Source of the DNA: a virus
IMG/VR virus record: IMGVR_UViG_3300050015_000600
Coordinates: 1 to 64,000 of that record
Strand: one strand, 5' to 3'
Length of the DNA: 64,000 nucleotides
Below the pieces are notes generated by a model, which was not told where the DNA came from, did no database searches, and saw only the letters and a program-made list of their open reading frames with translations. Below are positions 3,275 through 49,244 of the stretch, piece by piece. Within the stretch, counting starts at the first letter, position 1, and the number at the start of each line of letters is the position of its first letter. Made by a program: the position numbers and the translations under genes.

Positions 3275-6200
3275 CTACCTTATATGTGAATGAATCATTC
3301 GCCAATAAAAATTGTATTCTGCTAAGTATGTATATCCCTCTGTCTCAATATCTATATGATACTGTTTCCCCTTCGCCGGTCTGTCGTCAACTTTATATAA
3401 TCCGTTAGCGTCTAAGCCCATTCTCGGAGTTTCGTTTACTATTCTGATAAAGTTGTCGTGCGTCCCGCTTATAGTTCTTTTCCCTGGATAGCCTTCGTAA
3501 TAAGTTCCTGAAGCATAATCAACCGTAGGATTAAAGTCCTCTTTGCCTACAGCGTAATCAGTCGCTCCCAAGAATCCCTCGTGTTCTATCTTATTAAAGT
3601 ATTTATCATAGTTATTCTCAGTCGAAGTCTTAATCGTTATAAAGCCTTCGCTGTATATATCAAAATTGTTATCTCTGATTCTCTTGTTTACAGTCCCGTT
3701 ATTCATATCATAGAATTTACTTCTGTAGATATTCTTAATCGGGAACTCTATTTTATGTGGAAACTCATTAGCCACTAATGTTTCATAATTGCCGCTCTTG
3801 CCGTAATCAGCGTTATTGTAAAGCACAGAATCAGTCCCTTTATATAGCTCTGGTGCTTTGTAAGGCGTTTCTATGTAAAATTGTGCTGTTTTATATCTCT
3901 CGCCCGAAGAATACGGCACGCCCGATATATCGAAATTGCCGTATAATTTCGGAAGTATATCCGCGCTTCTAAGTTCGCCCAAGCTATTAGTAAAGTATTT
4001 TCTCAATACCTGTTGCGAATCGTTTGCTGTAGTGACAAAAGGTGGCATAGGATAATTGCCTGCCAGCTCGTTGCTGACATCTCCTGTATTAAGATAAGAA
4101 TACTTTGTAGCGTACTGGTGTAACAAATTTACTACATAAACGTGCCCTAAAAGCCGTTTATCGTGCTTAAATTTGCTGTTATTGTCAAAGTACGTTATAG
4201 TTGTATCGTGAGTGTCGCTATCGCCTAAATTACAGCCAATCGGTATATTCAAATACAGTTCGCTTGTCGTAGGATTATAAGCGCACGACGCGTCTCTGAT
4301 TTTCTCTTTCGCGTTCTGTAATCTAAACTGTAATTCTTCGTTGAACTTGCCGTCTATCTTTGAGAATTGGTTATTATCATATCTCATCAAACCTTCCCAG
4401 CTTAGGAAATACAACACGTTGTCTATATTTATCAACGTATTAGGTGCTATACATCCTATATTAGGTGTTAGCTCATCCGTTCTACTTATAGGCTCCTGGC
4501 GTCCTTGTACTGCCATTCTGTGCGTAGAGTTCTCTTTGAATATTACTAAGTTGCCGTATAAACTCGCAAGCCCAGTCACCTGGTCGCCGTCGCCTTCTTT
4601 TACTTGTCCAAAAGCGTCAGCTTTGATTTTGTCAGGTAAAAATGCTTCCGAGTATCTAAAAGCAGATTCATAGTTATGAACATCGCGTTGTACTACAGGC
4701 ATTGCTTGTTTACCGGTTAATCCCGCATCTACGAATATACCTTCGTCATCAGGTTCTACCTTGCCGACATAGAAAAATTCGTCAGGCTGTGGAAGTGTTG
4801 CCGTAGGCTTTGTTCTGTAGACTTCTACTTCTTTTATGCTGTCGTCGTACTTGCTTGGAATAGTATATAATACTACCGCGTATTTATCAACCGTGCCCGA
4901 TTGGTGTACGCCCGAGGTTTCTATATGGCTCGTTTCTTTGTAATCTGAATACACACCCGTATTATCTTTATAAAGGTATCTATATTTAACTATTTTATTT
5001 CCTTCGAATCCGTCATCGCCGGAAGCTGTGCACATAAATGTTTCGTAATGCGTGTCAGGATACATAAAGTCGCCGTAGCCGCTTATACCGCTTTCTAATT
5101 CGTGTTTGCGGATTGGCTTTGGAGAATATGTTTCCTCTAAATTTGCATAATACATACGCTCGTTCAACGCTACATTAAACCTTGATTTTAATGGGTCTGT
5201 TAAGCCGTCGTAATCTGATATATTTACACTAAAATCTAATTCTTCGTCTTTGATTTTATCGAAGTAATAGCAACCGGAATAGTTAGTTTTGTCTAACATC
5301 TCTGTTATAGCTATATCACCTTCGCGTTTGATAGGCACTTCTTCTACTAAGCCGTATTGTGTTGGCTGGTAGTCGTTGTTGTGTGAACTTAATGTTCTAA
5401 ATATCAATAATCTCTTAGCGCGGGCAGGAACCTTAGCATTTTCTATTTTAAATCCTATCCTTGGTGCTTTGAATAACACAGAACTTGGGAATACTGCTGT
5501 CAATTGTTCCGGCAACATTAAGCGTGTACCCGCGAAGTAGTTTTCAAGAGTAAGATTGTCGCCGAAATTTCTATGATTAAACCCCGTATATTCCTTATCC
5601 CCTAATAAATTATAATGAATATTAACGTCATATAGCGTTCCTGTATAATCTAAACGAGCCATGTCATAAGCAAACATATCGCCGCTCATAACAGCTATTT
5701 TCGCAGAATCCATATCCCCATGTATATAGATTTTTTCTGAGTATATATCCATTTGTGGCGGGTTAATTTCAATATTTATAATGCCATTTTGTATTAATCT
5801 GTTTCGCGCTTGAGTTTGAATAGCCAAATCCGTATTCATTAAATCTTCAGAATCTTCTTTAACTATCCTTAACGAAGTATTAGGCCTAAAATCATACGCT
5901 CCGCTTACTATAGGATTTTTATTATTCCAGTCATCGTCTCTATCCGCGTTACTTACGCCTAATAAATTAAAATAGAAATCATTATCTGGTACGTTATAAT
6001 ATTTACCCCAAATCGAATCAGGAAACCGCAACGCCATCGCTTCATATATATTGCGCGGAAAGTGATCAATCGTGTAATGATACCCAAATCCGGCATTTGT
6101 TCCACCTGTGACTATTTCATATTTTCTGACATCGTCATTCGCATAAGCTAATCTAACTCTACCATCTACATCGCACAAAGAATTATATGTAACGCTTTTA

Positions 6201-44426: not shown

Positions 44427-44465
44427 AGCGGAGAATGGTTCTAAGGTTCGATTCCTTGCTCCGCT
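44427..44465 (+). ncRNA. tRNA-like element 4 (39-nt minihelix)
   Basis: Acceptor AGCGGAG (44427-44433) pairs perfectly with CTCCGCT (44459-44465). T-stem TAAGG/CCTTG (one T.G) holds the canonical T-loop TTCGATT (44447-44453). The two helices abut as in tRNA (7+5 bp). Only AATGGTTC joins them, keeping a D-loop-like TGGT that could contact the T-loop. The next ATG is 38 nt downstream. Confidence 0.78.
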
Positions 44466-45322: not shown

Positions 45323-45365
45323 AAAATAGCATGGTATTCGGGAGGTTCAAATCCTCCCCTATTTT
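45323..45365 (+). ncRNA. tRNA-like element 5 (43-nt minihelix)
   Basis: Acceptor AAAATAG (45323-45329) pairs with CTATTTT (45359-45365). T-stem GGGAGG/CCTCCC (6 bp) holds the canonical loop TTCAAAT (45346-45352). The linker CATGGTATTC keeps a D-loop-like TGGTA. The next ATG is 38 nt downstream. Confidence 0.75.
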
Positions 45366-46354: not shown

Positions 46355-46612
46355 ATGAAAAAAGCATTATGTATATGCAATATGTGTGGAGCTTTGTTAA
46401 TAGACGAAAATCCACAAGTAGATGCAATGGAATATGAATTAACAGGTGCAGAACAAGAAATGGAATATCATTACGACAGGGAGGATGGTTCGTATTATGG
46501 GTGTCCTAATTGCCATACAGACGGTTATTTAACCGATAATTTGACAAGTGAAGCTCATCTTGGGTTGTATAACCACATGAAACATAATTGCGAGGCGACT
46601 TATGCAAACTAA
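46355..46612 (+). CDS. zinc-binding small protein
   Basis: 85 residues. MKKALCICNMCGALLIDENP and later YYGCPNCHTDGYLTD give CxxC pairs for one zinc, separated by an acidic helix. It overlaps the integrase gene by 11 bases. Could be a regulator for the recombinase; inferred. Confidence 0.7.
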   Translation: MKKALCICNMCGALLIDENPQVDAMEYELTGAEQEMEYHYDREDGSYYGCPNCHTDGYLTDNLTSEAHLGLYNHMKHNCEATYAN

Positions 46613-47474
46613 AATTAATGAATTTCTTGCAATGCCAACACGTAAATCTATGGTAATTTCCGATGATTATAAAAGATTAGTCACTTCAACTTTTGAAAAG
46701 TATCAAAAGAAGTTTGAAACGTTGTCAAGAGCGAATATAATAGAGTATCTAAATACTTCCGATTATTCGCAGGGTTCTAAATATACAATAGCAACTACTT
46801 TATGCAGGTTCGGGCGTGAGTTCGATCTGCTTAAAGAAAATGATATTAATACTATCAAGCGTTGTTTCCCAAAAGACCGCAAAGAATGGTCGAAAGAAAA
46901 CCTAAAAGCAAATGACCTTGACACAATACTCGATACGATTATTAAGCGTAGAAAGCTCCCTGTTACTAATTTAAGGGACGCATTGTCTATTGCATTGCTT
47001 AGTTCATTCGGAATGCGTGTAGGGCAGTTAATAGCCATGCAAAGAGATGATATTAGAATAATTGAGGATAAAATCGTTGTCGCTCTTATCCGTCAAAAGC
47101 ATAATAAGTTTGACCGCTCTCAAGGCGATGTGTTCAAAGTGTCGTTGCCTATGAATTATAAAGTCGGACAATATAATCTTAAAACATTATTGCTGAGATA
47201 CAAAGAATTATTACCACAGGACAGTCCGGCTTTGATATACGGCAAAACTTTCGACGCTCCTATGACCACCGCCGGAATGCGCAAGGTTATTAAGAAAATA
47301 GGTGAAGATATACACATGCCTGATCTACACCCTCATGTTTTTAGGCATTACGTAGGAACTAAATTAACTATAGAATACGGTGTAGAAGTTGCTTGCGCTA
47401 TGCTTAATCATGCGGCTATTAATACGACTAAAACATATTTGAATAAAGAATCAATTTTAGATAAAATTAAATAA
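46602..47474 (+). CDS. int: tyrosine recombinase / integrase
   Basis: 290 residues. The N-terminal SAM-like core-binding domain (about 5-100) is followed by the catalytic domain with R139 (FGMRVGQL), a Lys at 166 or 169 (RQKHNKF), H245-x-x-R248 (HPHVFRHYVG), H270 (MLNHAAIN) and Tyr279 (TKTYLN). It catalyses site-specific strand exchange, for phage integration or for dimer resolution. No arm-binding domain is evident. It is expressed from inside the tRNA-punctuated unit, and a tRNA gene lies 1.3 kb downstream. Confidence 0.92.
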   Translation: MQTKINEFLAMPTRKSMVISDDYKRLVTSTFEKYQKKFETLSRANIIEYLNTSDYSQGSKYTIATTLCRFGREFDLLKENDINTIKRCFPKDRKEWSKENLKANDLDTILDTIIKRRKLPVTNLRDALSIALLSSFGMRVGQLIAMQRDDIRIIEDKIVVALIRQKHNKFDRSQGDVFKVSLPMNYKVGQYNLKTLLLRYKELLPQDSPALIYGKTFDAPMTTAGMRKVIKKIGEDIHMPDLHPHVFRHYVGTKLTIEYGVEVACAMLNHAAINTTKTYLNKESILDKIK

Positions 47475-47750: not shown

Positions 47751-47984
47751 ATGATAGCAATTAATCAAAACGAAGAAGCAGTACCTTTAATGTACATACT
47801 AACCGATTATGATTTACGCGGTGGTTTGGATACGGGTACTAAAATAACAGACTTTAGGCTATCACAGCAAGTGATAAATACAATGCCTACGTTGGTTTAT
47901 ATTAATAAAGACGGCAAAGCGGTATTATTAAAAAGTCGGCATGACAATATTAGCATAGGATTTATTGACCTTCGGGATATATAA
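47751..47984 (+). CDS. hypothetical protein, last gene of the unit
   Basis: 77 residues from the ATG at 47751 (MIAINQNEEAVPLMYILTDY), preceded by AAAGGA; an upstream in-frame ATG lies inside the previous gene. Beta-rich with a DKTGTKITDF-like phrase. A terminator follows 14 bases after the stop. Function unknown. Confidence 0.65.
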   Translation: MIAINQNEEAVPLMYILTDYDLRGGLDTGTKITDFRLSQQVINTMPTLVYINKDGKAVLLKSRHDNISIGFIDLRDI

Positions 47985-47998
47985 TAGATTAAACCCTC

Positions 47999-48032
47999 AG
48001 CCGAGCCTTTTAAACGAGGTTCGGCTTTTTTT
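47999..48032 (+). terminator. intrinsic terminator of the rightward small-gene unit
   Basis: AGCCGAGCC pairs with GGTTCGGCT (9 bp, one wobble), 10-nt loop, followed by seven T. It ends the unit that begins at 41.6 kb. Confidence 0.88.
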
Positions 48033-48093
48033 GTGTCTTAGTATGCCTATATTTGTTGTGTTTGTACAATTTAATATATTTTATGATATAAAT

Positions 48094-48124
48094 TTGTATA
48101 TGTTGCAAAATAATCGTATGTTTG
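48094..48124 (+). promoter_or_regulatory. promoter of the non-coding RNA / tRNA locus
   Basis: TTG (48094-48096), 20-base spacer, TATGTTTG (48117-48124), a full TTG/TANNTTTG match right after the terminator. No gene follows for 700 bases, so its product is RNA. Confidence 0.75.
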
Positions 48125-48203
48125 AATGTTCAGTTATTTGTAAATCGAACAAAGTGATTTTTAAGAAGGTTTTTGCACCTTATATTTTCCTTCTTAAAAT
48201 CGG

Positions 48204-48339
48204 GGCAAAGTGGCGGAAATGGTAAACGCACGGGCATGATTAGCAGGAAGCTACTACCGTACATAGTGCGGATAGATATATCCAAGACACGTAGCTGAAA
48301 TAAATACTATACTTGCAGGTTCGAATCCTGCCTTTGCCC
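48204..48339 (+). tRNA. tRNA-like module with an extended internal region
   Basis: Acceptor GGCAAAG (48204-48210) with CTTTGCC (48332-48338), extended outside by G-C pairs; D-arm GCG..CGC with a TGGTAAA loop; T-stem GCAGG/CCTGC with loop TTCGAAT. These match a leucine-type tRNA. The space between D- and T-arms is about 85 nt, some 45-50 nt too long, and holds AGCTAC/GTAGCT, CCGTAC/GTGCGG and GGATA/TATCC pairings. No convincing anticodon arm could be drawn. It may be a tRNA with an insert or a tRNA-like domain of a larger RNA. Confidence 0.55.
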
Positions 48340-48454
48340 CTAAATAGTTCTTTGAATAAAAACCCATCGGGAGATTAGAAAACCTGAATAAAACAAATCG
48401 GGGAGTAAGACGACACGCTGTAAGCTGTTAGGGTCTCCCTTGAAAATGTAATAA

Positions 48455-48527
48455 ACCCCGCAAGTACTTTACGATATATTGCGGCAAATAATGTAGTTGT
48501 TTTGGACATACTCGCGGGGTCTCTTTT
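48455..48527 (+). terminator. terminator-like fold with a competing hairpin
   Basis: ACCCCGC (48455-48461) pairs with GCGGGGT (48514-48520), extended by AGTA/TACT, before CTCTTTTT. The 5' arm can instead pair locally (CCGCAA 48458-48463 with TTGCGG 48479-48484). The two folds exclude each other, so read-through into tRNA-Ser may be controlled. Confidence 0.5.
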
Positions 48528-48592
48528 TCAGAGGGTGGTTGCCTTAGGCTAAGCTATGATTGAGCAAGGTGCGTACTAACAGGACTGTAGAA

Positions 48593-48683
48593 CAGCGACA
48601 GATAGAAAAGTGTTGATACGTTCACGAACAGGCTATAGACTGGACTACCCTATCCTTTAGATGCAGTTTGATTCTGCTCGCTG
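48593..48683 (+). ncRNA. possible second tRNA-like module
   Basis: CAGCGA (48593-48598) pairs with TCGCTG (48678-48683). GCAG/CTGC holds a T-loop-like TTTGATT. GATAG pairs with CTATC inside. There is no clear D or anticodon arm. Confidence 0.35.
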
Positions 48684-48739
48684 ACCGAGATTTGGTAAAG
48701 ACTGTAAATCGTACGTAACAGCAGGGGTCATTTATTTTT

Positions 48740-48822
48740 GGAAGTGTCGCATAATTGGCATTGCATCTCCCCGCTAAGGAGACGACCTTCGGGTTGTACA
48801 GGTTCGAATCCTGTCGCTTCCA
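48740..48822 (+). tRNA. tRNA-Ser(GCT)
   Basis: Complete class II cloverleaf: acceptor GGAAGTG/CGCTTCC, D-arm GCA..TGC with loop TAATTGGCAT, anticodon arm TCTCC/GGAGA with loop CCGCTAA (anticodon GCT at 48773-48775), variable arm CGACC-TTCG-GGTTG with a UUCG tetraloop, and T-stem ACAGG/CCTGT with loop TTCGAAT. Discriminator A, no encoded CCA. It would decode AGC/AGT codons. Confidence 0.93.
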
Positions 48823-48851
48823 CAAACAATTTAAGAGATTTATGAATGATA

Positions 48852-49244
48852 ATGTCTGAAATAGACAAGATAAGATTTGGGTTTGTAAAGCCTAAGAAGC
48901 CTAAAAGTTATAAACCGCCAAAGCGTAACAAGATGGCTAAAATTGAGAGTATCGAATATATACAAGAACAAGTAGCTGAATATTTTGATATTCCAATTGA
49001 AGAATTAATCGGGCGAAGCCGAAAAAACGAATACATGATTCCACGGCATACTTCTATCGCGTTATGCGATGCTTTGCTACCGCACACAATGGTATGTATA
49101 GCAAGTCATCACGGCGACCGCGACCACGCAACTGGCATTAACTCACGTAAACAGTCGGAAAACATGATATTCACTGATCCGACATATCGCAAGCAGTTCA
49201 AAGAACTGAGAACAAATATAGAAATTTATTTTGGTATAAATTAA
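48852..49244 (+). CDS. DnaA domain IV-like DNA-binding protein
   Basis: 130 residues from the ATG at 48852 (MSEIDKIRFGFVKPKKPKSY). After a basic, Pro/Lys-rich lead, residues about 30-100 match the DnaA C-terminal domain: IQEQVAEYFDIPIEELIGRS, then RHTSIALC and the signature GDRDHATGINSRKQ (GxRDHxT). That domain recognises DnaA boxes. There is no AAA+ domain, so it cannot open an origin alone. It may direct or inhibit replication initiation at DnaA-type sites. Confidence 0.82.
   Translation: MSEIDKIRFGFVKPKKPKSYKPPKRNKMAKIESIEYIQEQVAEYFDIPIEELIGRSRKNEYMIPRHTSIALCDALLPHTMVCIASHHGDRDHATGINSRKQSENMIFTDPTYRKQFKELRTNIEIYFGIN

Follow-up and report, generated by a model that had tools for sequence, protein, structure and literature searches.

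The window, by which I mean the whole 64,000-nucleotide stretch analysed here, is part of a virus contig in IMG/VR whose full length is 76,486 bases. An operon in it ends in an intrinsic terminator (47999-48034, + strand), with an 11-pair stem and a T tail. A tyrosine recombinase gene (PHROG integrase; 46602-47474) lies one operon upstream of the tRNA-like unit described below. Beyond the terminator comes a long interval on the + strand that ends with a tRNA-Ser(GCT) gene (48740-48823), called by ARAGORN and matched by the Rfam tRNA model at 52.3 bits. An earlier note, made from the letters of the sequence, had recognized the same tRNA and had placed a full promoter at 48094-48124. There is a match to the Bacteroidota-type pattern TTTG-N20-TATGTTTG on the + strand at 48093-48124. 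The pattern occurs three times on the window's + strand, where about two matches are expected by chance, and is weak evidence when taken alone. The match gains weight because the terminator sits just upstream, and "putative promoter" is as far as the description can go.

The interval is gene-free, as the note had claimed for its 600 or so nucleotides: runs without a stop codon reach at most 58 codons in 48131-48739, both strands considered. It is a different matter with the many strong helices the note saw there. When the 609 nt are folded computationally, the energy has no advantage over that of shuffled sequences (z = 0.09), and for 48529-48739 the value is z = +1.0. Because the fold equals that of shuffled sequence, richness in helices is no evidence by itself, and the picture of the whole 600 nt as one ornate folded RNA is not borne out.

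Individual elements fare better. Reading 5' to 3' on the + strand, a leader hairpin, TTTTAAGAAGG...CCTTCTTAAAA (48159-48199; from sequence reading and a predicted fold), stands just 5' of a tRNA-Leu-like module (48204-48339). There follow some 320 nt of noncoding sequence (48340-48658) with no homologue, no significant fold, and no ORF. Blastn gave no credible match to these 320 nt; one to a T4-like tail fibre (E 0.03) was judged to be chance. Then come the 36-nt core that is the main subject of this work and, last, tRNA-Ser. Relatives were also sought through the neighbouring DnaA-like ORF and through the primase, and none that were useful emerged. The best explanation of the sequence from about 48131 to 48823 is a putative noncoding transcription unit that would comprise an oversized tRNA-Leu-like module, a 400-nt RNA, and tRNA-Ser.

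The tRNA-like module is 135 nt long and carries the abnormal surplus, about 50 nt, that the note had put at 45-50. It scores 37.1 bits with the Rfam tRNA model (E 3.5e-4 over the whole window). The acceptor is paired at all seven positions, the T-arm is perfect, and the D-arm is of the tRNA-Leu type, so that the acceptor, D-arm, and T-arm expected of a tRNA are all present. ARAGORN makes no tRNA call here and finds no anticodon arm with a 7-nt loop; the predicted fold puts a longer arm in its place. A role in decoding is unlikely. More likely the module is a processing or docking element. Oversized tRNA-Leu-like modules of 122-160 nt recur in these phages, with acceptor, D-arm, and T-arm intact and the normal anticodon arm missing: at locus L012 (51-196; 146 nt), L016 (2249-2370; 122 nt), L047 (1576-1697), and L086 (upstream of 2842 on the reverse strand; 160 nt).

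Smaller tRNA mimics are found on the window's + strand upstream of the unit. Two minihelices, each a 7-bp acceptor joined to a T-arm through a linker, lie in intergenic sequence at 44427-44465 (linker AATGGTTC) and 45323-45365 (linker CATGGTATTCG); the pattern gives 0.01 matches per shuffled window. They share a TGGT linker and sit between small genes. Likely they are sites of processing by RNase P and RNase Z that punctuate an mRNA, and probably they account for the "tRNA-punctuated unit" of the earlier note.

The core and its relatives

What the note described as a second, weaker T-arm module is real, and it is the most significant feature of the interval. The conserved core at 48662-48697 (+), recognized by blastn, by a degenerate pattern, and by a covariance model, recurs in three unrelated phage taxa. 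It consists of a first T-arm, GCAG-TTTGATT-CTGC (48663-48677; loop TTTGATT), a second hairpin, TCG-CTGAC-CGA (48678-48688), and ATTTGGTA (48690-48697), a mimic of the D-loop of tRNA. A covariance model built with the window left out matches 48659-48714 with 48.1 bits (E 3.6e-12), and by the same kind of search the core is present once in the window's record.

In a sensitive blastn search of 50,697 phage genomes the region had a sole match, 48661-48699, at 95% identity with 47 Rosemountvirus-type phages of Salmonella and E. coli, mostly within unannotated or intergenic DNA. With looser settings the search also found Cellulophaga phage phi13:2 (Pachyviridae), whose core follows immediately on tRNA-Cys, and two Rhizobium phages, N38 and I1_6 (Schitoviridae), the former with its core behind tRNA-Gln. 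A degenerate pattern specifying the T-loop, the hairpin, and TTGGTA occurs in 19 IMG/VR stretches, where by my own estimate chance would give about 0.65. Two others yielded 41 and 43, the latter with the stems left free. Once near-identical copies are removed there are at least 40 distinct cores, the window's among them. A comparable pattern had zero matches in the genomes of 84,980 bacterial and archaeal species. Within the collections searched, the family is confined to phage records. The element is present in single copy, though many of the phages that carry it have several tRNAs. Salmonella phage rivia (L071, 701-800) has a natural deletion in which the sequence after the core's TTGGT is gone and half of the core region is lost; the element is therefore dispensable in at least one isolate.

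The consensus of the family begins with the first T-arm, GCAG-TTCGATT-CTGC, whose loop is a true T-loop (GTTYRATTC). There follow the second hairpin, TCG-NUNRY-YGA, and the sequence NWTTGGTA (in RNA, NWUUGGUA), which is the D-loop consensus of tRNA, single-stranded and without its stem. In most members three more elements lie 3' of the core: a second T-arm whose stem varies freely, then a hairpin whose loop carries GG (often as TGGT), and then the word TGAC with a hairpin whose loop is GAAAGA. The GAAAGA hairpin occurs in half of the 40 members, preceded in 19 of them by TGAC or TGGC.

Folding energies of the single modules are no better than those of shuffles, and because of this the claims of structure rest on covariation only. 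In an alignment of 29 members, the window left out, 95% of cells pair. Both sides of a pair have changed in 47 cells, where shuffles give 12, and covariation scores 0.390 versus 0.110; the signal is lost when the partners are slid by one column. The arms of the GAAAGA hairpin pair in 90% of cells; when arms are re-dealt amongst members 1000 times, the mean is 57% and the maximum 73%. The first T-arm and the second hairpin are nearly invariant and so contribute little covariation within them, but the stem of the first T-arm is found in four versions: GCAG/CTGC, CCCG/CGGG, GCGG/CCGC, and TCGG/CCGA. An extension of this stem by an upstream strand, forming an acceptor-like helix, fits only Rosemountvirus (L008), and I have dropped it as a general feature.

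Could the core be conserved as a peptide? The earlier note had regarded a conserved protein in the region as fatal to its idea, and the peptide reading is rejected. None of the core's three forward frames is open in every member (TGA stops the first frame in TTATTGAG members, the ATG frame in CTGACCGAG members, and the third frame in the window), and in many members a tRNA precedes the core.

The window's core has the first T-arm, the second hairpin, and NWTTGGTA, which define the family. Where the second T-arm usually stands, 2-21 nt after the D-loop mimic, there is a small plain hairpin, CTGT-N12-ACAG (48702-48721, +; sequence reading). The second T-arm is missing as well from L035 and L043 and is not universal. 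The 3' hairpin of the form TGAC-stem-GAAAGA-stem is also absent from the window; given that 20 of the 40 members have one, it is optional. Nor is the core close behind a tRNA 3' end, for 322 nt separate it from the tRNA-like module. On these three counts the window's member is a divergent one, which has kept the 5' core alone within a larger noncoding stretch.

Comparison with known RNAs

The earlier note had suggested that the RNA might belong to GOLLD or ROOL, which are large noncoding phage RNAs found near tRNA islands and whose function is unknown (PMC12286853). The window's RNA is like them in being a long noncoding stretch beside tRNAs in a phage. The models give no support for membership. 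Neither GOLLD (RF02032) nor ROOL (RF03087) matches 47900-48900 at E <= 10, and neither was found in 16 records that include the window's (GOLLD at E <= 1), searches in which no positive control rang. The core differs from both in being a compact T-loop/D-loop module, found only in phages, whose members are often about 120 nt long. More broadly, cmscan of 47900-48900 against all Rfam families at E <= 10 returned tRNA and chance matches only, no family of Rfam 15 exceeds its gathering score at 48340-48739, and the cores of the relatives tested have no Rfam match.

The T-arm of tRNA (RF00005) and of the tRNA-like domain of tmRNA has the loop GTTCRANNC, and both have a D-loop consensus containing GG, which in tmRNA lacks a D-stem. 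The core resembles them in its T-loop and in its GG-bearing D-loop consensus, stemless as in tmRNA. It differs in that the family is permuted, the T-arm coming before the D-loop, and has two T-arms, no closing acceptor stem, and no anticodon. Paired T-loop motifs are also used by stem I of T-boxes and by the specificity domain of RNase P to make or bind the tRNA elbow. The family resembles these in its T-loop motifs. It differs from them in that there is no match by sequence or covariance model, the D-loop mimic here lies between two T-arms, and the family lies downstream of tRNAs rather than, like T-boxes, upstream of genes for aminoacyl synthetases. The pRNA of phi29 is likewise a small structured phage RNA, and some family members lie beside terminase genes, but there is no Rfam match, and the hosts and genome layout are different.

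A loose kind, the structured phage RNA beside tRNAs, was known already. Neither the sequence of the core nor a description of it was found in the open literature that can be searched; since this leaves out subscription journals and a part of the preprints, an earlier description is possible. It would apparently be an undescribed family of phage RNA and a new RNA class. The other alternative of the earlier note, a new class with tRNA-like modules built in, is well supported by the homologues, the covariation, and the position next to tRNAs.

Position behind tRNAs and possible function

T-arms end directly upstream of 22 of the 40 cores. Usually 4 nt (CGAA or CTAA) separate the core from the discriminator base (N73) of a tRNA; where CCA is encoded, 4 nt (GAAG, GTAG, or AGCA) come between it and the core. 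About half of the members begin 4 nt behind a tRNA-type 3' end. The upstream elements are varied: ordinary tRNAs, a tmRNA (L015), oversized tRNA-Leu-like modules (L012, L016, L086), and, in L085 and L088, minihelices consisting of acceptor and T-arm only. The tmRNA is a phage gene at 485-845 of L015 (tag DNAQIEANMNKVFSLLREEVGVAA), and here too the core begins after 4 nt. A coding frame or stop codon, not a tRNA, precedes the core in L034, L045, L020, and L027, and in Rosemountvirus, L005/L007, and L028 the core is within longer noncoding sequence.

I propose that the core marks a new phage noncoding RNA that is freed by the enzymes of tRNA maturation and acts in trans as a mimic of the tRNA elbow. 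RNase Z or the CCA-end pathway would cut behind the upstream tRNA or tRNA-like module, as tRNA biology suggests, and RNase P would cut before a downstream tRNA, such as tRNA-Ser(GCT), to give the RNA its 3' end. The RNA would then be freed as a by-product of tRNA maturation. If the motifs are a guide, its T-loops would dock on the GG in the D-loop mimics, a contact like that of the tRNA elbow, and such a fold would make a compact, nuclease-resistant RNA that factors recognizing tRNA elbows could bind. The stable product might then act in trans during infection, most likely as a decoy that occupies host machinery for binding tRNA, or else as an RNA scaffold through such contacts. On balance I consider the proposal as a whole somewhat probable. 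My confidence in the existence of the RNA family is higher than that, and in the function in trans it is lower. The note's idea that the same processing enzymes act on this RNA and on tRNAs receives support of an indirect kind, from the cores 4 nt behind mature tRNA 3' ends in many relatives and from the two tRNA-like minihelices upstream in the window's genome.

The very regularity of that 4-nt spacing might be taken to mean something simpler: that the core is a folded cap at the 3' end of a tRNA or behind the stop codon of an mRNA, controlling in cis the trimming or stability of the upstream RNA and having no role in trans. The four loci in which it follows a coding frame would fit as well. 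It is too much to expect, however, that a cap would need to be so large and so conserved. Cores in the window, in Rosemountvirus, in L005, and in L028 lie inside long noncoding sequence, away from a tRNA, and a cap present only once is odd when many of the phages have several tRNAs. I regard a cap as unlikely, though it is the alternative to be taken most seriously.

Seven loci have a terminase gene within about 1 kb of the core (L005, L012, L017, L020, L029, L032, and L043). Perhaps, then, the large versions, the window's included, are cage or ring scaffolds like GOLLD and ROOL, or packaging RNA like the pRNA of phi29, with the core as one contact module. Their length and their nearness to tRNAs would agree with this, GOLLD and ROOL being known in phages near tRNA islands (PMC12286853). 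But phage genomes commonly have noncoding DNA near terminase in any case, no terminase is known near the window's copy, many members of the family are only about 120 nt long, and, as noted, neither model matches. I find this quite unlikely.

T-arm sequences are common att sites, and with an integrase-like gene at 46602-47474 and terminase genes beside some relatives, one may ask whether the core is an element at the level of DNA, a site for recombination, attachment, or packaging that resembles a T-arm by chance. This is very improbable: the compensatory changes preserve pairing, not sequence, the core lies on the same strand as the tRNA where there is one directly upstream, and the 84,980 cellular genomes, where integrated copies should be expected, gave no match to a comparable pattern. 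It is scarcely credible that the cores are functionless remnants of tRNA genes in a tRNA-rich spacer, for while phage tRNAs do decay and the window's tRNA-like module has no recognizable anticodon arm, that module's acceptor and T-arm pair perfectly and the same 36-nt core, with invariant bases that belong to no tRNA consensus, turns up again in unrelated phages.

Amongst decoy, scaffold, and packaging RNA, my preference is for a mimic of tRNA that would act in trans. In its widest form, which I offer only tentatively, the idea is that a widespread, virus-only RNA may be a permuted double tRNA elbow, having two T-loops and two D-loop mimics. Host tRNA-processing enzymes would excise it where it lies downstream of a tRNA, a tmRNA, a minihelix, or an oversized tRNA mimic, and it would interfere with or exploit the host's tRNA-binding machinery or its tRNA-cutting defences.

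There are few structured RNA classes known to be common to phages of unrelated hosts and yet absent from the cellular genomes scanned. The family is present in cultivable phages of Salmonella and E. coli, Cellulophaga, and Rhizobium, which opens its expression, structure, and phenotype to direct test. With its T-loops and D-loop mimics set 4 nt behind the ends of tRNAs, it would reveal a new use by phages of the form and processing of tRNA, and it offers a concrete case in which to ask why phages have so many tRNAs and tRNA-like elements.

A second conserved noncoding domain

In L005, L007, L043, and L057 the core is accompanied by a further domain that is conserved and noncoding, GAATGCGCAGGCTGATGCGC...GCCGGAGATCAGCACCGGC, with a covarying stem to close it, for example GAGAGCG/CGCTCTC or TGATGGCG/CGCTATCA. 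Copies of the domain lie at L005 1720-1820, L043 4120-4200, L057 10150-10250, and L052 1930-2060, amongst others, often near terminase and tRNAs, and in the loci tested it has no Rfam match. Core-free copies are present as well, in more contigs and in Aeromonas phage ST4, lying in about 1 kb of mostly noncoding sequence between portal and terminase. Large modular phage RNAs such as this combination of domain and core may be commoner than the known classes suggest.

One more sequence deserves mention. Behind tRNA-Asn in L028, at about 3310-3420, there is a variant T-arm string, GGCAGTTTGATTCTGTCG, and after it a structured-looking stretch, and this is possibly another relative.
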